Shown here piece by piece: positions 1,441-24,594 of a DNA stretch of 64,000 nt (positions within the stretch are counted from its first letter, which is position 1; each line of letters starts with the position of its first letter). The translations under genes and the position numbers were made by a program. Location: positions 2,010,030 to 2,074,029 of the forward strand of contig NZ_LR027842.1 of the NCBI RefSeq assembly GCF_900607225.1, given 5' to 3'. The notes beneath the pieces are model-generated. The model was given only the letters and a program-made list of their open reading frames with translations, ran no database searches and had not been told where the DNA came from. The stretch is from [Pseudopropionibacterium] massiliense (GTDB lineage Bacteria > Actinomycetota > Actinomycetes > Propionibacteriales > Propionibacteriaceae).

Positions 1441-1467
1441 TCCGGCACCGGAAACGCATCGACCATC

Positions 1468-1492
1468 CGGTGGGCCGGATTCCGGCCCACCG
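1468..1492. terminator. hairpin between convergent serpin and dapC genes
   Basis: A perfect 11-bp stem, CGGTGGGCCGG then ATT then CCGGCCCACCG, lies in the 55-base gap between two converging genes. There is no long T tract on either side, so it is a likely bidirectional terminator of the GC-only type. Confidence 0.6.
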
Positions 1493-1495
1493 TGA

Positions 1496-2605
1496 TCAGT
1501 TGCTCTGAGGTTGCTCCCTCAACCGGGCGGCGGCGGAGGCGATCCGTTCGTCCGTGGCCGTGAGGGCGACGCGGACGTGGGAGCCACCGGAGGTTCCGTA
1601 GAAATCCCCCGGGGCGGCGAGGATCCCGCGTCGCGCGAGCCACGCGATGGTGTCCTGGCACGGTTCGCCGCGGGTGACCCACAGGTACAGCGACCCCTCG
1701 GAGTCGTCCACCCGGAAGCCCGCGGCCTCCAGGGCCGGACGGAGCACGGCCCTCCTGGCCAGGTAACGCCGCCGCTGCTGTTCCACGTGTTCCTGATCGG
1801 CCAGCACGGCTGCCAGCGCGGCCTGGATCGGGCCGGGAACCATCATGCCGAGATGCTTGCGGGCCTGCACCAGGTCCTGCACGATCGCCGGATCGCCCGC
1901 GACGAACCCTGCGCGGTATCCGGCGGCATTCGAGCGTTTCGAGACGGAGTGCACCGCGAGCAATCCGGAGAGGTCGCCGTCGTTGACGCCCGGGTCGAGG
2001 ACGCTCGTGGCCTCCCGTTCCCAGGCGAACTCTCCGTAGCACTCGTCGCTGGCCAACACGGCCCCTTCGCGGCGAGCCACTGCCACCCAGGCGCGCAGCT
2101 GCTCCGGGGCGAGGATGCGGCCCGAGGGGTTGGCGGGCGAGTTGATCCAGATCAACCCGGTTCCGGCCGGGATGGCCCCGGGATCGTCGCAGGCCACGGG
2201 CCTGGCGCCGGCCGCCCGGGCTCCGATCTCGTAGGTGGGGTAGGCGATCTCGGGATGAACCACGACGTCGCCACCCCCCAGGCCGAGAAAGGTGGGGAGC
2301 CACCCGACCAGTTCCTTCGTCCCGATCACGGGCAGCACGGACTCGTGCCGCAGGCCGCGCGCGTTCCACCGGCGTTCCAGATATCCGATGATGCCGTCAC
2401 GCAGCTCCGGGGTGCCCCACACCGTCGGGTACCCGTGGGCGTCCGACGCGGCAGCCAGGGCATCCACGGCGATTTTCGGTGTGGAATCCACCGGGGTTCC
2501 GACGGACAGGTCCACGATTCCGCCCGGATGTTCCCCTGCGATCCGCCGGGCCTCCGCCAGCGAGTCCCAGGGAAAATCGGGCAACTGCTTTGCCAGAGAC
2601 ATCAT
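1496..2605 (-). CDS. dapC: succinyldiaminopimelate transaminase
   Basis: A 369-residue PLP-dependent fold-type I aminotransferase. Visible elements are GYPTVWGTPELRD near residue 60, NSPANPSGR at about 155-163, the D187/Y190 pair that contacts the cofactor, and SVSKRSNAAGYRAGF with K223 as the Schiff-base lysine. The pattern and the partnership with fdxA match actinobacterial DapC, which transfers an amino group from glutamate in the succinylase branch of lysine and diaminopimelate synthesis, feeding cell-wall cross-links. The start overlaps the fdxA stop (ATGA), so the two genes are translationally coupled; a second ATG directly follows the first. A general aminotransferase of other specificity cannot be excluded by motif alone. 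Confidence 0.85.
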   Translation of the reverse strand: MMSLAKQLPDFPWDSLAEARRIAGEHPGGIVDLSVGTPVDSTPKIAVDALAAASDAHGYPTVWGTPELRDGIIGYLERRWNARGLRHESVLPVIGTKELVGWLPTFLGLGGGDVVVHPEIAYPTYEIGARAAGARPVACDDPGAIPAGTGLIWINSPANPSGRILAPEQLRAWVAVARREGAVLASDECYGEFAWEREATSVLDPGVNDGDLSGLLAVHSVSKRSNAAGYRAGFVAGDPAIVQDLVQARKHLGMMVPGPIQAALAAVLADQEHVEQQRRRYLARRAVLRPALEAAGFRVDDSEGSLYLWVTRGEPCQDTIAWLARRGILAAPGDFYGTSGGSHVRVALTATDERIASAAARLREQPQSN

Positions 2606-2922
2606 TCGCCCTGCGGGGGAAGCTGCTCGACCGCCGGGTGGTCGTGGTCGACGGGACCGAGGCGGGCGGCACCGCCGGGTGAACCGAGGGTGTCGAAGAA
2701 CTGGGCGTTGATGTCGAGGTATTCCTCCTGGTCCTCAGGCAGGTCGTCCTCGTAGTAGATGGCCTCCACCGGACACACGGGCTCACAGGCCCCGCAGTCC
2801 ACACACTCCTCGGGATGGATGTAGAGCATCCGGTTACCCTCGTAGATGCAGTCGACGGGGCATTCCTCCACACAGGCCCTGTCTTTCACATCGACGCACG
2901 GCAGGGCAATGATGTAGGTCAC
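2602..2922 (-). CDS. fdxA: seven-iron ferredoxin
   Basis: A 106-residue ferredoxin starting at a GTG with AAGGAG just upstream (a further upstream frame of nine codons lacks an RBS). Cysteines at 9, 17, 21, 25, 40, 43, 46 and 50 with CPVDC and CVDCGACEPVCP follow the FdxA pattern for one [3Fe-4S] and one [4Fe-4S] cluster. The protein has the usual acidic C-terminal extension. It is a soluble low-potential electron carrier. It lies directly upstream of dapC, with overlapping stop and start, an arrangement seen widely in actinobacteria. Confidence 0.92.
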   Translation of the reverse strand: MTYIIALPCVDVKDRACVEECPVDCIYEGNRMLYIHPEECVDCGACEPVCPVEAIYYEDDLPEDQEEYLDINAQFFDTLGSPGGAARLGPVDHDHPAVEQLPPQGE

Positions 2923-2993
2923 TTCACTCCTTCTGGTTCTTCCGCGCAAAGCTTAGCGCGCAGCACCGGAATCAGTCGTCGCCGCTCACAGCC

Positions 2994-4730
2994 TCAGGAG
3001 CCGCAGGTGACCTTGTCCCCCGCGGCATAGGTCCACGAGTAATCCTCGGTTTTGGCCATCTCCCCGTTCTTGTAGAACACCCGTTTCCATGTGGCCGTGA
3101 AGCCCTGAATAGGGGCCTGGGGCTCGCATCCCGGGGTGTTCACGACACGTTCCCCGCCCGAGTAGTAGTTGGACTTCACCGGCTCCGTCGACTCCACCTT
3201 GTCCCATGTCGGGCGGGACCAGATCCGGAAGGTGAGGCTTCCCTTGCCGCCCGGTGTGGAGGGGGTGTTCACGCCCTGTATGTAGGCCGGATAGTCGGTG
3301 TTGTTCCTGAACTTCATGTCGAAGCTGCCGTAGTAGATGGTGGCCTCGCGGCCTGCCGGGTAGCGGTCGAAGTAGAGCGTGTGGGGCCGGTGTTCGACGT
3401 CCTCGTAGCCCGCGAAGAAGCCGGCGTTGTACATGGTGGTTGCTGCCTGTGAAATACCGCCGCCGGATTCCTTGACCAGCAGGCCGCCATTGATGACGTA
3501 ACCGTCTGTGAAACCATTGGCCGGGGTGCGGGGCCCCAAGGTGTCGTTGAGGCTGAATGTCTCACCGGGAAGGAGGACCTTGCCGTTGATGAGTTCGGCT
3601 GCACGCCCCAAATTCGTGTTCCGGTAGTCGGCGTGCGGGTAGTAGGTGGTGAATTCTCCGATCACCTGGGTGGGTTTGAGGGCTTCTGCCTGCTCGGTGG
3701 AGAACTCGGCGGACCCTTCGAGGACCTCGACGGTGGTGGTCCGGGCATCACCGCTCTGGGCGGCCGCCTGGGTGACGCCCTCCGCCAGGCCTTTCATGTC
3801 GAGCTGCTGGCCGCCCTCGGCGGGCACCACCTCGACGGTGTCCCCGTTGAGGGTGTAACCGGCATTCTTTCCTGCTACCAGGCCGAGATCGGCACGGGCC
3901 TCGGCGGTCACCTTGAGGAGCTGCTCCGGGTTGAGGTGTGGAACCAGTTTGCCGTCCTCGGCCACGAAGGTGGTGACCGCAGCGATCTGCTCCGGGCTCA
4001 CCTGGAAACTCTTGTCACGGGCCTTGACCGTGACGGGCCCGGACAACGCCGGGGTCGCGAAGTTTGCAACCGCCTCGTCCACCATGGCCGATGTGACTGC
4101 CGGTGCCTGCGCCCTCGTGGTGGGCGCGACCTCGCGGACCCCCGACTTCATGGCCTCGGCCACCGTCGCACTGGTGGCCTCGACGTCCAGGACCGTCGAA
4201 TCGGTCGACTCGGTGCGACTGATGGCGCCGTCCACGAAGGCGAGGGTGGCGTCGGTCCCCTCGACCGTGAAGACCGGGGCGTGGGTGGTCAGCGTCTCCT
4301 TGAGTTTCTCGGAGTCGACGTTCTTCGGCAGCTCCGTCGGGCCGCCGCCGAGAAGGGTCTTGAACACGTCAACCGGATTCAGGCTCGCTCCTCCGGCCGC
4401 TTTCACTGCGCCCGCGTAGTCGACGCTCAAGCCGCTGTCCAAGGGCACGAGTTCGGCGGAGTGTCCCTTGCCGTCGGTCACGGTCATCGTCGCCTCGTAC
4501 CGGACCCCCAACTCGGTGCGCAGGCGCTGCTCGGCCTCGGCGGGGTGCAGCCCTCCGATGCTCACTCCTTCAACCGTGGTGTTGGTCGGCACCTTGTCAC
4601 CAGCCATGAAATAGGCTGCCGCGTAGGCACCGCCCAACAGCACGACGAGTCCGATGCCACTGCCTATCAACCACTTCCTGCGCCGCGATGGGGGTTTCTT
4701 GCTGGTCAACTCCGGTCCTTCTCTTGTCAC
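2994..4730 (-). CDS. membrane-anchored VanW-domain protein
   Basis: A 578-residue protein with a basic, cytoplasmic N-terminus (SKKPPSRRRKW), one membrane helix at about residues 20-42 and a large external part. Repeated modules after the helix (EGVSIGGLHPAEAEQRL and two later similar stretches) look like peptidoglycan-binding type 4 domains. Residues from about 355 hold the VanW domain, with FTTYYPHADYRNTNLGRAA, LPGETFSLNDTLGPRT and GGGISQAATTMYNAG. VanW proteins occur in some vancomycin-resistance clusters, but most are chromosomal envelope proteins of unknown activity; no van genes are present here. The start is a GTG with no strong RBS. The divergent MFS gene begins 78 bases away. Confidence 0.85.
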   Translation of the reverse strand: MTREGPELTSKKPPSRRRKWLIGSGIGLVVLLGGAYAAAYFMAGDKVPTNTTVEGVSIGGLHPAEAEQRLRTELGVRYEATMTVTDGKGHSAELVPLDSGLSVDYAGAVKAAGGASLNPVDVFKTLLGGGPTELPKNVDSEKLKETLTTHAPVFTVEGTDATLAFVDGAISRTESTDSTVLDVEATSATVAEAMKSGVREVAPTTRAQAPAVTSAMVDEAVANFATPALSGPVTVKARDKSFQVSPEQIAAVTTFVAEDGKLVPHLNPEQLLKVTAEARADLGLVAGKNAGYTLNGDTVEVVPAEGGQQLDMKGLAEGVTQAAAQSGDARTTTVEVLEGSAEFSTEQAEALKPTQVIGEFTTYYPHADYRNTNLGRAAELINGKVLLPGETFSLNDTLGPRTPANGFTDGYVINGGLLVKESGGGISQAATTMYNAGFFAGYEDVEHRPHTLYFDRYPAGREATIYYGSFDMKFRNNTDYPAYIQGVNTPSTPGGKGSLTFRIWSRPTWDKVESTEPVKSNYYSGGERVVNTPGCEPQAPIQGFTATWKRVFYKNGEMAKTEDYSWTYAAGDKVTCGS

Positions 4731-16216: not shown

Positions 16217-17365
16217 TCACGCCCCCGCGACCTTCTCCGCCGATGCCCAGCCCGCGAGGTCTCCCTTGTTGATCGCGAGGGCGATCATCTCGGGGAAGGC
16301 GTCAGGGGTGCAGGCGAACGACGGGATACCCATGGCGGCCAGGCTGCCCGCCACGTCGTGGTTGTAGCCGGGGGTGCCGTCGTCGTCGAGGGCGAGCAGG
16401 GTCACCATCGTGACCCCTTGCCGCTGGAACTGGGCCATCCTGCGCAGCATCTGCTCGGAGTTGACGTCGTAGAGGTCGCTGATCAGGACCATCACGGTCT
16501 CCCGGGGGCGCTGCACCAGGTGTTCGCAGTACGCGAGGGCCCTGCTGGTGTCCGTGCCGCCGCCGAGCTGGGTGCCGAAGATGACGTCGACGGGGTCGCT
16601 GAGCTGGTCGGTGAGGTCCACGACAGATGTGTCGTAGACCACCAGGTGGGTTTTCACCGCCTTGATGGAGGCCAGCACCGCGGCGAAGATGCTGGCGTAG
16701 ACCACCGACGTCGCCATGGACCCCGATTGGTCGACCACCAGCATGATCTCCCGCTGGAAACCGTTGTGTTTCCGGCCGTAGCCGATGAGGCGTTCGGGCA
16801 CGACGGTGTTCAGCTCGGGAAGGTAGTTGCCCAGGTTCGCAGCGATCGTCCGTGACCAGTTGATGTCGTTCAGGCGAGGCCGGTTGGTGCGGGCGGCCCG
16901 GTTCAGCGCCCCCCGGACCGCCTGCTGCACCTTGTCGGCGAGCTTCTCCTCCACCTGCTTGACCACCCGGGCCACGACCTCGCGGGCGCTGGCCCTGGCC
17001 TTCTGCGGCATGACCCGCCCCAGGCCGGCCAGGGTGGCCACCAGGTGCACGTCAGCCTCGACGGTCTCGAGCATCTCCGGTTCCAGCAGCAGCTGCTTGA
17101 GGCCCAGCCGGTCGATGGCGTCGGCCTGCATCACCTGCACCACCCGTGACGGGAAATAGGTGCGGATGTCACCGAGCCACCGCGCCACCCTCGGCGCCGA
17201 TGTGCCGAGCCCGGCGTGTCGTTTCTGCCCGTCACCGCCCTGGTTGTCGTAGAGGGCGGCCAGGGCGGCATCCATGGCGGTGTCCTGCCGGGACAGGACG
17301 TCCTCGGCGCCATCCGGGGCGGCACCCAGCAGCAGCCGCCAGCGCCGGTCGCGTTCGTCGTTCAT
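16217..17365 (-). CDS. VWA-domain protein of a MoxR-associated operon
   Basis: A 382-residue protein. The first 200 residues are helical (LRTYFPSR-like stretch, then a charged segment around KARASAREVVARVVKQVEEK). The VWA domain follows, with the MIDAS signature DQSGS at about 212-216, a conserved Thr in GTDTSRAL and VMVLISDLYD near the end. It belongs to the CoxE/ViaA-like group that acts with MoxR ATPases. The start ATG overlaps the DUF5682 stop (ATGA), so it is the last gene of the five-gene unit. Metal-dependent binding of a client or of the ATPase is the expected role; the actual target is unknown. Confidence 0.88.
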   Translation of the reverse strand: MNDERDRRWRLLLGAAPDGAEDVLSRQDTAMDAALAALYDNQGGDGQKRHAGLGTSAPRVARWLGDIRTYFPSRVVQVMQADAIDRLGLKQLLLEPEMLETVEADVHLVATLAGLGRVMPQKARASAREVVARVVKQVEEKLADKVQQAVRGALNRAARTNRPRLNDINWSRTIAANLGNYLPELNTVVPERLIGYGRKHNGFQREIMLVVDQSGSMATSVVYASIFAAVLASIKAVKTHLVVYDTSVVDLTDQLSDPVDVIFGTQLGGGTDTSRALAYCEHLVQRPRETVMVLISDLYDVNSEQMLRRMAQFQRQGVTMVTLLALDDDGTPGYNHDVAGSLAAMGIPSFACTPDAFPEMIALAINKGDLAGWASAEKVAGA

Positions 17366-19500
17366 CGTGCGCTCTCCAGGATCTCGTCAACGGTTGCGAG
17401 CACCGCCGCGAACTCGGTCAGGTCCGGTTCCTCCTCGGCCACCGGCTCGGCTCCGTCGAGGTTTGCGACCTTCCCCGCCAGGGCCCGCCGTTCGGGCCGT
17501 TCCCAGCCGCCGAAGGCGCGCCGGACCACGGGAAGCACGTCGGTGAACGATTCATCCGACAACCCCGTCACCCAGGCGTCGATCACCTTCAGCAGGGCCG
17601 GGGAGTGGAGCAGCAGCAGCGAACTGCCCGACAGCACTCCCTCGGCCCAGGCCGCCTGTTCGCCCGGCGGATGACCTCCCGACAGGGCCAGTGACAGCCG
17701 CCGCTGCACCTCCTCGACTCCCATGTCACCACCGTCGAACAACAACCTTACGAGGCGTCCCGCCAGCAGACCGGGAAGGTCGTGACGGTCGGCCGCGGCC
17801 AGCAGCGTGTTCCGCCACAGCTGCTGGGCTTGATCCCCGAGCAGCCCGACGGCGGCGTTCGCCTTGTCGATCAGACCCCGGTACCGGTCGGCCGCATCAG
17901 GCGCCAGCCCGCTGAGGGCGACGGGAAGGCCCGCGCAGGCGCGCCCCAGGAGGGCGGCGACCACATCCCCCAGGCGTCCGGTCTCGGTGCCGCGCACATC
18001 TCCGTAGCGATACGCCTGAACGAGGTCGGGCAGCGCCTCCAGCAGCCGCGCGACGTCGGTTTCGGCCGCCGCCCGGACGTCCAGGAGCCGCAGCAGCTCG
18101 GGCATGGCCGCGGGCAGGTCGGCCGCCAGCGCCCCGTTCACGCCCCGGGTCACCCCGGCCAGGTCACCGACATCGCCCAGCAGCCGGGCCGCCGCCGCGG
18201 CCTCTACGGTGTTGCCCCAGCGTGCCGCGTCCACGACGGCGATGGAGAGTTCGGGTTCCCACAGCAGGCGCCACGTCTCCTTGAAGGTGCCGGTGCCGGA
18301 ATTTCCGGCAGGCTTTCCCCAGTCGATGCCGAGGATCCTCAGGCGCCTGAGGAAACAGGACCTGGCCAGACCGTTCTCCTTGCGCAGGTCGAGGTCGAGC
18401 TCCTTCTCGGTGGCCTCCTGCCTGAGTCTGAGCCGCCGCGCGGTTGCCGTGAGGTCCGCGTCGAACGGGGTGCGGGGCACATCATCCGGCACCTCCCCGA
18501 GCAGTTCGCCGACGATCGCCTCCCGGGTGACCAGGTCGAGGGCTAGGTCGCTGCCCTCGCACAGCACCGCCAGGGTGGCCTCCTGCACCTCGGGCAGCCC
18601 GGGCATGGGGCGGCCACGCAGCACGGCGAGGGCATCGGCCAGCCGGATGCCCTCGATGATGTGGGCGGACGATGTGGGCAGGTCGTGTTCACGCAGCACG
18701 GCGCCGACGTGGGTCAGCCAGCGTTCGACGGGACGGTCGGGGGCGGTGAACAGGTGGTGGTACCAGCCGGGGGAACGAACCCCTGCCCCGTAACCGGAGG
18801 AGGCTGCCAGCCTGCCGTGGGACCATGGCACCCAGGTGAGCTGGGTTCTCACCTTGGGCAGCTGTTTCAGCAGCGCATTGTCGTCGGCCACTTTCACCTT
18901 CGCGGTCAGCGCCGGGACGTGATAGGCCCCGCACACCACCGCGATCTTCTCGTGGGCGCGTTTCGCCGCGCGCAGCGCCTTGCGCATGTGGGCCTCGCGC
19001 AGCAGGGTCTCCTCGTCATCGACACCGTCCTCACGGACGGCGGCCATGGCCTCTGCAATCACGTCGAAGACGTCCTCGTCACGCTGCTCGACGAGATCCT
19101 CCCACCAGCGTTCGGGATCGTCATACCCGGCGGCCCCGGCCAACAGGCCCAGCGGGTCCGATTCCGCCGCGTGTTCCTCGCGGGAGCGGGCGAGGCCGAG
19201 CGAGCTGGGAAGGTCGATGAACGACGCCGGACGGGAATTGCGGCTGGCCCATTCGAGGGCCTGCCATTCGGGTGAGAAGGTTGCGAACGGCCAGAACGCG
19301 GCCCGCGCGGGTTCGCCGACCACCCATGCCAGCAGCGCGACCGGGGGTTTCAGGCCTGCCACGTGGGAGACCATCGTGTCAGCGTCCGCGGGTCCCTCGA
19401 TGAGGATCGCGTCGGGGGTGAAATCGTCGAGGGCGCGCAGCAGCGACCGGGCCGACCCCGGTCCGTGGTGGCGGATCCCGTAGATCCGGATCTCGCTCAT
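17362..19500 (-). CDS. DUF5682 family protein with TraB/ChaN-like motifs
   Basis: A 712-residue protein starting at the ATG at 19500; upstream codons in the frame belong to the end of the moxR-type gene. The N-terminal 200 residues hold GIRHHGPGSARS (8-19), ILIEGPADAD (32-41) and VVCGAYHVPAL (188-198). The GxxHxGPxS, E and GxxH arrangement resembles TraB/ChaN/EreA-like metal-dependent hydrolases, so an enzymatic domain is plausible. The remainder is helical and Leu-rich, with many RLLxD stretches and no clear motif. It sits 13 bases after the MoxR gene and overlaps the VWA gene. The domain assignment is from its characteristic opening and operon context; its biochemical role is not established. 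Confidence 0.8.
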   Translation of the reverse strand: MSEIRIYGIRHHGPGSARSLLRALDDFTPDAILIEGPADADTMVSHVAGLKPPVALLAWVVGEPARAAFWPFATFSPEWQALEWASRNSRPASFIDLPSSLGLARSREEHAAESDPLGLLAGAAGYDDPERWWEDLVEQRDEDVFDVIAEAMAAVREDGVDDEETLLREAHMRKALRAAKRAHEKIAVVCGAYHVPALTAKVKVADDNALLKQLPKVRTQLTWVPWSHGRLAASSGYGAGVRSPGWYHHLFTAPDRPVERWLTHVGAVLREHDLPTSSAHIIEGIRLADALAVLRGRPMPGLPEVQEATLAVLCEGSDLALDLVTREAIVGELLGEVPDDVPRTPFDADLTATARRLRLRQEATEKELDLDLRKENGLARSCFLRRLRILGIDWGKPAGNSGTGTFKETWRLLWEPELSIAVVDAARWGNTVEAAAAARLLGDVGDLAGVTRGVNGALAADLPAAMPELLRLLDVRAAAETDVARLLEALPDLVQAYRYGDVRGTETGRLGDVVAALLGRACAGLPVALSGLAPDAADRYRGLIDKANAAVGLLGDQAQQLWRNTLLAAADRHDLPGLLAGRLVRLLFDGGDMGVEEVQRRLSLALSGGHPPGEQAAWAEGVLSGSSLLLLHSPALLKVIDAWVTGLSDESFTDVLPVVRRAFGGWERPERRALAGKVANLDGAEPVAEEEPDLTEFAAVLATVDEILESAR

Positions 19501-19513
19501 GGACGGTCCTCGA

Positions 19514-20599
19514 TCACCGCGCCACCTGGCGGCAGGCCCGGTAGAAGTCCTTCCAGTCGGCACGTTCCCGCACCACGGTCTGGAGGTATTCCTGCCAGAT
19601 CACCTGGTCGGCGACCGGGTCCTTGACGACGGCGCCGACGATGCCCGCCGCAACGTCCTCGGCACGCAGCACACCGTCGCCGAAGTGCGCGGCCAGCGCC
19701 AGCCCGTTGGTCACCACCGAGATGGCCTCGGCGGCGCTGAGGGTCGCGGACGGGGTTTTCAGGGAGGTCTTGTTGTCCTCGGTGTGGCCCTGCCTCAGCT
19801 CACGGAAGACCGTCACGACGCGGCGGATCTCGGCGATCGCGTCGGTGGCCTCGGGCAGATCCAGGGAACGTCCCAGCTCTGCCACGCGTTTGGTGACGAT
19901 CCCGAGTTCCTCCTCGGCGCTCGAGGGGAGCGGCAGCACGACGGTGTTGAACCTGCGCCGCAGGGCGCTGGAGAGGTCGTTGACGCCGCGGTCCCGATCG
20001 TTGGCGGTGGCGATCAGGTTGAATCCGGGGCGGGCCTGCACCTCCATGCCCAGCTCCGGCACGGGCAGTGTCTTCTCGCTGAGGGTGGTGATCATGCCGT
20101 CCTGGACATCGGATGGCATCCGGGTGAGTTCCTCGACCCGGGCGATGGCGCCGCGTTCCATCGCAGTCATGATCGGTGAGGCCACCAGCGCCGCCTCCGA
20201 GGGGCCCTCCGCAAGCAGGCGGGCGTAGTTCCAGCCGTAGCGAACGGCCTCCTCCGCCGTACCGGCGGTGCCCTGCACCAGCAGCGTCGAGTCACCGGAG
20301 ACCGCGGCCGCGAGGTGCTCGGAGACCCACGATTTCGCGGTGCCCGGTACCCCCAGCAGCAGCAGGGCCCGGTCTGTGGCCAGCGTCGCCACGGCGACCT
20401 CGATCAACCGTCGGTTGCCGACGTATTTCGGAGTGATCCGTGTCCCGTCGGGCAGTGTGGTACCCATCAGGTACTGCACCACCGCCCAGGGTGAGAGCCG
20501 CCAGTTGAACGGGCGCGGTTTGTCGTCGGCCTTCGCCAGGGCTTCGAGTTCGTGGGCGAAGGCCTGTTCGGCGTGTGGGCGAAGCACGGTCTCGGTCAT
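19514..20599 (-). CDS. MoxR-type AAA+ ATPase
   Basis: A 361-residue AAA+ protein starting at MTETVLRPHA. Walker A is GVPGTAKS at 83-90. The Walker B region reads ARVEELTRMPSDVQDGM, with V-E-E in place of the common D-E pair but with the PSDVQ helix typical of MoxR. Sensor 1 is NLIATANDRDRG, and the arginine-rich RRRF follows. MoxR ATPases remodel or activate partner complexes, often together with VWA proteins. The ATG overlaps the DUF5691 stop (ATGA), and DUF5682 and VWA genes follow. The fold is shared with CobS of cobaltochelatase, but the neighbours point to a different complex. Confidence 0.9.
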   Translation of the reverse strand: MTETVLRPHAEQAFAHELEALAKADDKPRPFNWRLSPWAVVQYLMGTTLPDGTRITPKYVGNRRLIEVAVATLATDRALLLLGVPGTAKSWVSEHLAAAVSGDSTLLVQGTAGTAEEAVRYGWNYARLLAEGPSEAALVASPIMTAMERGAIARVEELTRMPSDVQDGMITTLSEKTLPVPELGMEVQARPGFNLIATANDRDRGVNDLSSALRRRFNTVVLPLPSSAEEELGIVTKRVAELGRSLDLPEATDAIAEIRRVVTVFRELRQGHTEDNKTSLKTPSATLSAAEAISVVTNGLALAAHFGDGVLRAEDVAAGIVGAVVKDPVADQVIWQEYLQTVVRERADWKDFYRACRQVAR

Positions 20600-22053
20600 C
20601 TGGGCTCCTCGGGGTGGGCAATGGTTTCGTGGATGTGCTGGCGAAGGGTCAGGGCGGCGACGGCATCCCGCATGACGCGCTGCCCGAACTGGGAGACGCC
20701 GGATTCCCCGCTCAGCGCTGCGAGGCGGGACAACAGATCGGGAATGCACCGTGGAACGGTGGAGAACGCCAGGAGCTGAGTGGCGTTCTGGTGGACACCG
20801 GCCCTGGCTTTCACGCAGGCCCGGATGCCGTCCAGAACCGCGTCGACCGCCTCGGGACCGAGGCGTAGTCCGTCCCGCTGCTGCGACAGCAGCCGACTGC
20901 ACAGGTCAGTGAACTGCGCGGGTTTGGTGGCGCGGATCGAATCTGCCAGGAAGGTGTCGCGGGCCTCGGGCGGCAGGAGCAGAGCGAGGGCCGGGTCGGG
21001 ATGCTCGACGAGCAGCTCCCGGGCAGCATCGGCGTCACCCCAGCGGAGCACGGCGCCGGTCAGGGCCGGAAGGAGCGGAACCGGTTCGTCGCCCAGCAGC
21101 GCGCCGGGGGCGAGTTCTCGGACGCTGAAACCCAGCTCCACCCAGCACTTCGGCGGTATCACCTCGACGAGGCGCTGCACCCGCCCAGCAGGGCCCTTGG
21201 CGGTGCTCATCAACGCGACCTCGGCATGGAAATCGGCGGCCAGGTCCTTCTCGGGAGGCTCGACGGCGACGATGGAACGTTTCGGGGCCCGCAGTTTCCC
21301 GAGCAGCCCCTTCCGGGGTTTCTCCGCCCATGCGAAACATCTGCGGGCCAGTTCAATCGCACGGGCGAGGTAGGCCGAGCCCTCGAGCCGGGCCAGAAGC
21401 CCGGCGGCGGTGCGGCCCACTTCCCCGGACCGGTCCCGCAGGAAACCCTCGAGAAGTTCCTCGTCATCCGACCCCAGACCCACCTCGAGGGCGGCGACGA
21501 ACCGGGCCCTGTCGGCCGCTTTCTCCTTGCGGGTCTGCTCGACCAGCGCCCGTCCAGCGGCGGCATCGGTGGCACGCACGTGCCGCAGCCACGCGACGCG
21601 TTCGGGGAGGGTGCCCTCGTCCCAGTCCAGCGGATCCGGTTCGGTCACGGCCCAGGTTCGTAGCCAGGTGCCACCAAGCCCGGCCAGCCAGCGGCCACGG
21701 GATCCCAGCACGGCGGGGAGTGCGGATGCGATGTGCCGGTTGTTGTCCGCGACCTCCAGCAGCGGGACGATGAGTCTCGTGGGCAGCACCAGCCCTGCCT
21801 CGGCGAGCAGGGTCAACGCCTCGGCCAGGATCGGGAAACGCATCACCGGCGGACGCGCGAGGACCGCGTTCACCGTGGTGATGAAGGTCTCCGGGGGTTG
21901 GGCGCTTTCCTGCTGCGGTGCGGCCGCCGGCACCGACAGGTCGCGGGTGCGAACGCTGGCGCGGTGCACGGCCGCCTGACGGGCGGCGTGATCGAGCAGC
22001 TCCGGTTCGGGGTTGCCGATCAGGGCGGACGTGATGAGCCGAGAGGATTTCAC
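20596..22053 (-). CDS. DUF5691 family protein
   Basis: A 485-residue protein starting at the GTG that overlaps the SWIM-gene stop (GTGA). It opens SSRLITSALIGNPEPELLDH and has the recurrent segments LPTRLIVPLLEVADNN, LGSRGRWLA and LPERVAWLRHVRATD. The rest is made of helical pairs rich in Leu, Ala and Arg, like a HEAT-type scaffold; FLRDRSGEVGRTAAGLLARL is one such unit. Proteins of this kind are known as companions of SWIM, MoxR and VWA genes. No catalytic residues are apparent, so a scaffold or adaptor role is the simplest reading. Confidence 0.75.
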   Translation of the reverse strand: MKSSRLITSALIGNPEPELLDHAARQAAVHRASVRTRDLSVPAAAPQQESAQPPETFITTVNAVLARPPVMRFPILAEALTLLAEAGLVLPTRLIVPLLEVADNNRHIASALPAVLGSRGRWLAGLGGTWLRTWAVTEPDPLDWDEGTLPERVAWLRHVRATDAAAGRALVEQTRKEKAADRARFVAALEVGLGSDDEELLEGFLRDRSGEVGRTAAGLLARLEGSAYLARAIELARRCFAWAEKPRKGLLGKLRAPKRSIVAVEPPEKDLAADFHAEVALMSTAKGPAGRVQRLVEVIPPKCWVELGFSVRELAPGALLGDEPVPLLPALTGAVLRWGDADAARELLVEHPDPALALLLPPEARDTFLADSIRATKPAQFTDLCSRLLSQQRDGLRLGPEAVDAVLDGIRACVKARAGVHQNATQLLAFSTVPRCIPDLLSRLAALSGESGVSQFGQRVMRDAVAALTLRQHIHETIAHPEEPR

Positions 22054-23348
22054 AGTGGAAACACCGTCGCTTCCCGCAGATATGCAACGGGCCGCAGGCC
22101 GTCGGCGGAGAGCTCTCCGAACACGGTGGCGGAGGTGGTTCCCAGTTCGGCGAACAGGCGCCAATGGTCGGTGGTGTCGCCGGCCAGGGGGACGGCCTGC
22201 CCCGCGATCAGCCACGCCCCGTCGTCCCAGGTCAGCGACCCGTGGATGGCGACCGGCCAGGCGTCGCACCACGGATCGGCGGCCACCGCGTCCCGCAACT
22301 GCCCGGCGGCCGTGACGACGTCATCGCCCACGATGTCCCAGCCGTCGACCCGCCGGGACTCGGCGCGCTTGGCGCCGACAACCGCTCGCAGCCGGGGCCG
22401 CCCGGGATAGAAGTGGAGGTCGGCATCGATCTCGGAACCCGGTTGGAGGCCGGTGTCGAACCCGTCGCCGGACCGGGCGAAGAACAGCACGAGGGCGCGG
22501 GCGCCGGTGTCGCGGCCCCACAGCCAGACGCGCCGCACGCTGACCTGCTCCTCGTCGGCATCGCGCATGCCCAGCACCACCCAGCGATCCTTGAAGCCGG
22601 GGGTCGCGAGCACGTCCTCGGTGCGGGTGCTCAACCCGATGCGGGATCGCACGGTCGCGACGAGATCACCGGGCAATTTCTCGCGCCCGACCCAGGCCCT
22701 GGCCAGGAGGTGCAGGGAACCGTACTCGTCGACGACGCGGGCCGGCCAGTCGCCCGACGACGGCTGGGCGGCGAGTTCCCGGAGCCGCGAGGCCACGCCC
22801 GGGGCCTGCGCATCCACCATGCGTGCCGCCATGTGCTCCAGGCGCCGCGACCGATCCTCGGCGTGGGTGGCCAGGCCCTCGCGGAGCTGGTCGGCCAGGA
22901 AGCGGTCGAGCTCGGCCAGGCCGTCGGTGATTCTCTCCTCGCGTTGCGCGGCTCTCCTTGCGGCGGCCGCCTTCTGTTCCTCGGTTCGTTGTCTCGGCTC
23001 GGTTTTCCCGGTCGCGCGGGTCTCGCGCGCATCCGCCCACCGGGAAGCGAACTCGGCCACCTCACCGGATTCGGAAACCTGGCCCTGGGCCCACAGGAAC
23101 AACAGGGCGAGGGCATGTTTGCAGGGAAACTTGCGGCTGGGGCAGGAGCACTTGTAGGCGGGCGAGGCCACGTCGATGCTCACCCGGTACGGCGTCCTTC
23201 CCGACCCTTGGCAGGCGCCCCACAGCAGATCCCCCCGGAATCCGATCTCGGACCACGGACCCGGTGCGGCGAGTTTGCGGCCTGCCTTGATCGACGATGC
23301 GTCGGGGGCGGCTGCCTCGACCCGGTCCACTGTCCACGGTTCACCCAT
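22050..23348 (-). CDS. SWIM zinc-finger protein, first gene of the MoxR-VWA operon
   Basis: A 432-residue protein. The SWIM motif is at 67-78: C67, C69, C76 and H78 in YKCSCPSRKFPCKHALAL, giving CxCx6CxH. SWIM domains bind DNA, RNA or proteins through zinc. A charged helical region follows (from about 105 to 170, KTEPRQRTEEQKAAAARRAA) and then a conserved C-terminal domain ending at a stop that overlaps the DUF5691 GTG. The ATG at 23348 is preferred because a TACTCT hexamer lies eight bases before it; the frame extends further but shows no start signal. It is the promoter-proximal gene of the unit. Confidence 0.88.
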   Translation of the reverse strand: MGEPWTVDRVEAAAPDASSIKAGRKLAAPGPWSEIGFRGDLLWGACQGSGRTPYRVSIDVASPAYKCSCPSRKFPCKHALALLFLWAQGQVSESGEVAEFASRWADARETRATGKTEPRQRTEEQKAAAARRAAQREERITDGLAELDRFLADQLREGLATHAEDRSRRLEHMAARMVDAQAPGVASRLRELAAQPSSGDWPARVVDEYGSLHLLARAWVGREKLPGDLVATVRSRIGLSTRTEDVLATPGFKDRWVVLGMRDADEEQVSVRRVWLWGRDTGARALVLFFARSGDGFDTGLQPGSEIDADLHFYPGRPRLRAVVGAKRAESRRVDGWDIVGDDVVTAAGQLRDAVAADPWCDAWPVAIHGSLTWDDGAWLIAGQAVPLAGDTTDHWRLFAELGTTSATVFGELSADGLRPVAYLREATVFPL

Positions 23349-23356
23349 GGGTCCCG

Positions 23357-23362
23357 AGAGTA
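23357..23362 (-). promoter_or_regulatory. -10 element of the SWIM-DUF5691-MoxR-DUF5682-VWA operon
   Basis: TACTCT eight bases before the SWIM-gene ATG, no Shine-Dalgarno sequence. It is the only promoter-like element seen for the five genes, whose internal gaps are overlaps or 13 bases. Confidence 0.5.
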
Positions 23363-23508
23363 ACGGGCACCACCGACACGAAGCCTCCCGGGAATTGACC
23401 GGGATCAATGCTCAATCGGCGGAAGGAGCAGCAGGAGAACGCTGCCGTGGATTGTTCGTCTTGCACCCTCGGGCTCCGGAGCCACCGAGACCGTGACCTG
23501 TCCGGCGT

Positions 23509-24594
23509 TCACAGGACCACCACCGATCGCAGTACCTCGCCCCGTTTCATCCGGTCGAAAGCGTTCTCCACCTCGTCGAGGACGATCTCCTCGCTGACGA
23601 AGGCGTCGAGATCCAACCGTCCCCGCAGGTACAGGTCCGTCAGAACCGGGAAGTCGCGGCTGGGCAGGCAGTCGCCGTACCAGCTCGCTTTCAGGGAGCC
23701 GCCGCGGCTGAATACGTCGAGCAGCGGGATCCGGGGCACCTTTTTATCGGGGGTGGGTACTCCGACCAGTACGACGGTTCCCGCCAGGTCGCGGGCGTAG
23801 AAGGCCTGCTCCCAGGTTTGCGGCACACCGACGGCGTCGATCACCACATCGGCCCCGAAGCCTCCGGTGAGGTCGCGGATCGCAGTCACGGGATCCCGGT
23901 GCCGGCCGTCCACGACGTCGGTGGCCCCCAGGTCACGGGCCCAGCGGAGTTTCCTCTCGTCACGGTCGACCGCGATGACCCGTCCCGCCCCTGCGAGCGA
24001 CGCGCCGGCGATGGCCGCGCAGCCGACTCCGCCGCAACCGATCACCGCGACGTTCTCGCCGCGCCTCACGTTCCCGGTGTTGATGGCGGCCCCGAGTCCC
24101 GCCATCACGCCGCAACCCAGCAGTCCCACGGCGGCCGGGCGCGCCGCGGGGTCGACCTTGGTGCACTGCCCGGAGTGGACGAGGGTTTTCTCGGCGAAGG
24201 CCCCGATCCCGAGCGCCGGGGTGAGTTCCGTGCCGTCGGTGAGGGTCATTCTCCGGGACGCGTTGAAGGTGGCGAAGCAGTACTGGGGTTCGCCCCGCCT
24301 GCACGCCCGGCAGGTGCCGCACACGGCCCGCCAGTTCAGCACCACGAAATCCCCCGGGGACACGGTGGTCACCTCGTCGCCGACGCGGTCCACGATCCCC
24401 GCCGCCTCGTGTCCCAGCAGGAACGGGAAGTCGTCGTTGATGCCGCCGTCCCGGTAGTGCAGGTCGGTGTGGCAGACCCCGCAGGTGAGAATCCTCACGA
24501 CCGCGTCCCCCGGACCGGGCTCGGGTATGACAATCTCCTCGACCGTCACGGGTGCCCCCTGTGACATTGCTATCAGGCCACGTGTTGTTTCCAT
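23509..24594 (-). CDS. mscR: S-(hydroxymethyl)mycothiol dehydrogenase (class III alcohol dehydrogenase)
   Basis: A 361-residue zinc-dependent medium-chain dehydrogenase, the usual length for the mycothiol-dependent formaldehyde/S-nitrosomycothiol enzyme. Catalytic zinc ligands are in [14 protein letters not shown] and GHEAAG; four structural-zinc cysteines are in [15 protein letters not shown]. The NAD-binding turn is [12 protein letters not shown] with the acidic residue in [10 protein letters not shown]. It oxidises the adduct of formaldehyde and mycothiol and can reduce S-nitrosomycothiol. The ATG at 24594 has TAGCCT seven bases upstream. No Zn-hydrolase partner gene, common in other actinobacteria, is present downstream. 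A related alcohol dehydrogenase of other thiol specificity is possible. Confidence 0.82.

Follow-up and report, generated by a model that had tools for sequence, protein, structure and literature searches.

Pairs of a MoxR-type AAA+ ATPase and a VWA protein are known as chaperones. Among these pairs are RavA-ViaA, NorQ-NorD and CoxD-CoxE, whereas the YehL branch, one of seven MoxR subfamilies (PMC3893208), has no role assigned in the literature searched. In E. coli K-12 this branch is represented by the yehL-yehM-yehP-yehQ cluster with yehF/yehI, for which the literature searched yielded only genome reports on yehLMPQ and no paper naming DUF5682. Related genes have nevertheless appeared in DNA-damage regulons. 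E. coli molR is listed as LexA regulated (PMC11039860), yehF is modestly upregulated in the SOS response (PMC11002266), and the DUF4132/WGR proteins DRA0166 and DR2173 of D. radiodurans are DdrO targets that are raised by mitomycin C in an IrrE-dependent manner (PMC8533742). In mycobacteria, the RecA-independent damage promoter has the form tTGTCRgtg-8 nt-TannnT (PMC5656591); it has been named RecA-NDp and is used by PafBC (PMC6789036). An M. smegmatis pafBC mutant has reduced levels of MoxR1, MoxR2 and a von Willebrand protein (PMC5656591), an observation that was set aside as evidence here because these need not belong to the system described below.

Results

Genes and products of the operon

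The operon lies on the minus strand of the window, by which we mean the whole 64-kb stretch of DNA that was analysed (Table 1). The first-pass annotation had described five genes on one strand, and this layout was reproduced at the same coordinates, with 4-base overlaps at three junctions and a gap of 13 bases between the MoxR and DUF5682 genes. Its list of products was likewise confirmed by Pfam matches for all five proteins. The zinc site of the SWIM protein has the form CxCxnCxH, and the ligands CxC...CxH are kept among relatives in the alignment. The energy module that had been proposed was recognizable in the MoxR P-loop (GVPGTAKS) together with the VWA partner, in which sequence inspection revealed the expected MIDAS in complete form (DQSGS...GGTD...SD). 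In phmmer searches the ATPase matched YehL at 2e-70 and RavA at only 0.0035; judged by sequence, it is YehL-like and not RavA-like. A HEAT-like scaffold had been predicted for DUF5691, and this was backed by a fold search in which the predicted structure of a naturally occurring SWIM=DUF5691 fusion matched HEAT/ARM solenoids at E values of about 0.002-0.05, the top matches being nearly all HEAT/ARM and reaching probabilities of up to 1.0.

Table 1. Positions of the operon, its genes and its predicted promoter in the window
Feature	Position	Strand	Start codon	Remarks
Five-gene operon SWIM-DUF5691-MoxR-DUF5682-VWA	16217-23348	minus		gap-free
SWIM zinc-finger protein, 432 aa	22050..23348	minus	ATG	Pfam SWIM 9e-7
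DUF5691 protein, 485 aa, HEAT/ARM-type helical scaffold	20596..22053	minus	GTG	Pfam DUF5691 6e-67
MoxR-type AAA+ ATPase of YehL kind, 361 aa	19514..20599	minus	ATG	Pfam AAA_5 2e-35
DUF5682 protein, 712 aa	17362..19500	minus	ATG	Pfam DUF5682 1e-245
CoxE-type VWA protein, 382 aa	16217..17365	minus	ATG	Pfam VWA_CoxE 5e-44
Predicted RecA-NDp/PafBC-type DNA-damage promoter, GTGTCGGTG-N8-TACTCT	23357..23379	minus		11/12 consensus positions

Directly upstream of the operon (window 23509-24522) is a gene for S-(hydroxymethyl)mycothiol dehydrogenase (TIGR03451, 2.5e-189), which detoxifies formaldehyde, and a mycothiol-dependent formaldehyde dehydrogenase gene also adjoins the SWIM gene in genome G435. 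A formaldehyde link of the operon was set aside, the dehydrogenase being a neighbour at the genus level only.

Conservation of the five-gene set

Among 296 genomes of the phylum, DUF5682 was present in 25 and DUF5691 exceeded the cut-off in 22. Since all 22 of the DUF5691 genomes also possess DUF5682 (hypergeometric P = 2e-30), the grouping of these genes in the operon is not due to chance. More than 560 relatives of DUF5682 were returned by a scan of GTDB genomes, and 80 loci fetched by DUF5682 similarity were kept. All five genes were found in the same order as in the window in 40 of the 80 loci, SWIM and DUF5691 were joined in a single fused reading frame in 15, and about 18 had a divergent form, typical of Streptomyces, in which SWIM-DUF5691 is transcribed divergently from MoxR-DUF5682-VWA; nearly all of the remaining loci were clipped by a contig end. 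Wherever a locus extended far enough for its gene content to be assessed, DUF5682 had MoxR and VWA genes as neighbours. The five-gene set is found in Actinomycetota and also in Leptolyngbya, Thiofilum, Deinococcus and Rhizobium, in the last two of which it is carried on plasmids, and within the genus of the window its distribution is patchy. The five genes are thus kept together in almost every complete locus fetched, and this conserved linkage supports the earlier reading of a single functional unit. The single co-directional operon that had been proposed holds for the linkage but not always for the arrangement, given the divergent Streptomyces-type genomes and the 15 fused loci. A full-length DUF5682 is also encoded on a metagenome scaffold labelled "Bacteriophage sp." (L215, MT835988.1; match 1453-3561), although this label is unverified and the scaffold may be bacterial contamination.

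Further comparison of gene content indicated that a core consisting of MoxR, DUF5682 and VWA exists in at least four architectures, the five-gene set being one of them. The window represents architecture A (SWIM-DUF5691-MoxR-DUF5682-VWA). Architecture B combines MoxR with a DUF5682=VWA fusion, preceded in Streptomyces by a DUF4132 protein; architecture C, that of the E. coli yeh cluster, includes SWIM together with WGR/DUF4132; and architecture D starts with two unassigned genes, followed by VWA-MoxR-DUF5682. The two unassigned proteins of architecture D, which had no Pfam match over the cut-off, may be the counterparts of SWIM and DUF5691. The natural fusions suggest that the system has two physical arms, namely, an effector arm (DUF5682-VWA) and an adaptor arm (SWIM-DUF5691). 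The E. coli yeh cluster shares with the operon homologous MoxR (40% identity), DUF5682 (28%) and VWA (33%) proteins as well as a SWIM protein within the cluster, whereas WGR and DUF4132 proteins are found where the operon has DUF5691, the gene order is different, and control is of the LexA type rather than of the PafBC type predicted here. The yehLMPQ genes were detected in 5,321 of 5,426 complete E. coli genomes (98%), almost invariably as a single chromosomal copy and at one site. A second copy of the system is present in the genome of the window itself (2184320-2193819); it has architecture C, with WGR-DUF4132 replacing DUF5691. This copy (MoxR-DUF5682-VWA-SWIM-WGR/DUF4132; L004 and L005) adjoins genes for DHFR and dinB.

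DUF5682 as a candidate hydrolase

The AlphaFold model of DUF5682 (pLDDT 89) consists of an N-terminal alpha/beta domain followed by a helical region. Residues without variation across the four architectures include, in the N-terminal domain, H11, H12, E35, R168, E169 and H194, an enzyme-like set in keeping with the hydrolase-like motifs noted at first pass. TIKI hydrolases need two His residues, a Glu and a conserved Arg (PMC6254334), and H11/H12, E35, R168 and H194 of DUF5682 resemble these, and the H, E, R and H of the TIKI/TraB/EreA superfamily, in order, spacing and strand/helix positions. Unlike members of this superfamily, DUF5682 has a long helical region after the N-terminal domain, and VvRRSP has ExH where DUF5682 has HH. 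No significant profile or fold match to the superfamily was obtained. With hhalign, DUF5682 aligned to TraB at P 0.009 and to Ere at P 0.033, with the motifs in register but with probabilities under 5%; unrelated controls gave values of at least 0.069 and the accepted relatives Ere and TraB only 0.2, so that the comparison had little power, and the ChaN and TraB families had too few members in the phylum to build a good profile. Foldseek with the full-length model, in which the helical region dominates, returned weak helical-repeat matches only, and a search of the DUF5682 profile against PDB sequences returned nothing credible. On the strength of the invariant residues and the model, the balance tips toward DUF5682 being a TIKI-like hydrolase.

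A damage-type promoter in front of the operon

The RecA-NDp motif was chosen after a literature lead, i.e., the presence of WGR, DUF4132 and molR in DNA-damage regulons, and the search was therefore not blind. Sites were scored out of 12 positions with the pattern TTGTCRGTG-N8-TANNNT, the consensus being mycobacterial. The site in front of the operon, separated from the SWIM ATG by 8 nt, is both the best match and the only site of at least 11/12 in the window. The same site with the same spacing was present in G435, G445 and one Propionibacteriaceae metagenome-assembled genome. Across 76 loci, 57 sites of at least 11/12 fell in operon upstream regions (30 kb) compared to 20 in the remaining 3.18 Mb, corresponding to about 300-fold enrichment upstream of the operon. 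Of the 53 actinobacterial loci of the non-divergent type, 28 had a top upstream score of 10 or higher, compared to 0.6% of dinucleotide shuffles (P about 1e-48, a nominal value, as the loci are related), and this score was reached in 12 of 25 genera. Several actinobacterial loci scored only 7-9; many of the lower-scoring loci retain TGTCR and TAnnnT with spacing and position unchanged. Actinobacterial LexA boxes were set aside, as no exact site was present upstream of the operon and sites with one mismatch were only somewhat more frequent than in the background.

A perfect site was found in 18 of 20 divergent loci, and perfect sites are located between the SWIM and MoxR genes of Streptomyces in L093, L116, L139-L144, L148, L150 and L153-L158. 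In S. venezuelae, an initial motif search had found that the PafBC motif was not conserved (PMC9380542); unlike that search, the sites observed here suggest that this promoter class is present in Streptomyces. Other architectures carry the motif as well (L067, L068, L069-L071 and L162). In the type D loci (L069:12415-15916, L070 from 4049, and L071:12267-15684) a perfect 12/12 damage-type site is at the front of the cluster. In two Streptomyces type B operons (L064:1063-8338 and L073:926-8060), a 12/12 site marks the start, about 6 kb ahead of MoxR, and is followed by the DUF4132 protein and a protein of ~1,700 aa without a Pfam match.

The same motif elsewhere in the genome

As a control within the same genome, 1.69 Mb (49% of the genome) was scanned. 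Ten sites of at least 11/12 were found; of those in promoter geometry, most stand before genes for replication or repair. A strict scan, in which a TGTCR core, TAnnnT and a start codon 2-14 nt further on were required, returned six genes from the 1.69 Mb: dnaX, dinB, xseA, gpi, SWIM and WGR-DUF4132. The identities of dnaX, YbaB, BrxA and DinB were confirmed by Pfam, whereas xseA, gpi and recA were recognized by eye from the sequence and are presumed to be these genes. Further sites were located at ybaB (11/12) and at the second DUF5682 gene (10/12); that of dinB scores 10/12, and recA has a weaker site (TTGTCACCC-N8-TACAGT, 9/12) in addition to an SOS box. Because SWIM, WGR-DUF4132 and the second DUF5682 gene each carry a site, the motif is found at each of the three transcription units that make up the two systems in this genome. 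With a weak WYL query, PafBC was not detected in the 49% that was sampled, and the best size-matched candidate was rejected as a DeoR regulator. The only perfect 12/12 site of the sampled half (G000:C1:455442-455464, minus strand) precedes a BrxA gene (L242:14786-15406; Pfam BrxA, 7e-46), and the promoter match suggests that this BREX phage-defence locus may also be DNA-damage-controlled.

Damage regulators in other phyla

The five-gene operon of Deinococcus has a single match of at least 13/15 to the DdrO consensus in 18 kb, and this match is located 21-35 nt before the start. In E. coli, a LexA-like box was found just upstream of yehF. In the loci of Rhizobium, Sinorhizobium and Thiofilum, the upstream regions contained no LexA box in the sense direction. 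A cyanobacterial LexA-like site (AGTACATTTGAACT) in one Leptolyngbya was discarded, as equally good sites occur elsewhere in the same locus.

Discussion

The presence of a DNA-damage-type promoter upstream of the operon points to genotoxic stress. As in the mycobacterial PafBC (RecA-NDp) regulon, the promoter is positioned at the start codon (PMC5656591), although the literature searched on that regulon does not list the operon among its members. From the promoter matches, the operon is very probably under DNA-damage control, and it probably serves DNA-damage survival. On balance, the five genes would appear to encode one DNA-damage-inducible protein machine. Genotoxic stress would cause PafBC to switch the operon on, and the ATP-driven MoxR ring, with VWA as its grip, would remodel or activate DUF5682, the putative hydrolase with a TIKI/EreA-like active site. 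SWIM and the HEAT-type DUF5691 scaffold would recruit the machine to damaged DNA or to proteins that have become stuck there, with SWIM and WGR-DUF4132 as the adaptors of the sister systems, and the outcome would be repair, clearance or damage tolerance. The WGR domain, which the sister-system adaptor carries, is known from PARP1, where it contacts DNA. The SWIM, DUF5691 and WGR adaptors may bind DNA. The first-pass annotation had proposed a sense-and-activate device; the idea that MoxR-VWA acts on DUF5682 is strengthened by the DUF5682=VWA fusions beside MoxR. A more specific version is a new class of DNA-damage-response machine, in which the AAA+ (MoxR-VWA)-driven hydrolase would remove or cut proteins that are trapped on damaged DNA, as a functional counterpart of the eukaryotic p97-SPRTN pathway, under PafBC, DdrO or LexA depending on the phylum; this version is speculative and would be rather a surprise.

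The suggested link to phage defence or defence islands was not supported, and we consider it unlikely that the operon is an NTP-dependent conflict system (anti-phage or abortive) of the MoxR-vWA ternary kind, armed by damage and with DUF5682 as third component or effector. Ternary systems of this kind, in which MoxR and VWA are accompanied by a third constant protein (VMAP, iSTAND, FtsH or beta-propeller), are described in PMC7159879, and the P-loop variant GxxxTAKS reported there is present in the operon's MoxR. The patchy distribution within the genus, the occasional plasmid location and the perfect RecA-NDp site at a BREX gene of the same genome are also compatible with such a role. However, PADLOC protein models gave no match, with only IetA at E 0.058, and bpMoxR reached 24.9 bits versus a cut-off of 27. 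Compared with the systems in PMC7159879, the operon has DUF5682 as its third component; its five proteins have no VMAP, STAND, FtsH or beta-propeller Pfam match, no hypervariable (variable) effector was found, and its E. coli relative is core and at one site rather than mobile. The evidence weighs against a mobile anti-phage role of the E. coli form.

It is also doubtful that the operon encodes a chaperone for enzyme maturation or metal insertion in the manner of CoxD-CoxE or NorQ-NorD, in which case DUF5682 would be the client enzyme and damage control incidental. The VWA protein is of the CoxE type, and the MoxR-VWA pairs described so far act in the maturation or activation of client complexes (PMC3893208; PMC7159879). 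On the other hand, the conserved set is devoid of metalloenzyme or respiratory genes, DUF5682 being the sole constant partner, and the promoter class is common to DNA-repair genes. The operon also differs from RavA-ViaA, NorQ-NorD and CoxD-CoxE in its distant relation to RavA, in its dedicated DUF5682, SWIM and HEAT partners and in its DNA-damage-type promoter. Finally, the promoter match might be a generic actinobacterial feature, uninformative on DNA damage, as the choice of motif was prompted by the literature and the strict-scan set includes one non-repair gene, read as gpi. Given the scarcity of high-scoring sites in the 1.69 Mb, the position of those with promoter geometry mostly before replication or repair genes, and the separate links to DdrO and LexA in other phyla, this is very improbable.

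With a DNA-damage-inducible machine as the preferred reading, what is new here is the damage-type promoter at the operon and the proposed placement of the YehL branch in the DNA-damage response via unrelated regulators in different phyla. A candidate hydrolase would be added to the PafBC regulon, and a long-uncharacterised core operon would gain a directly testable function.
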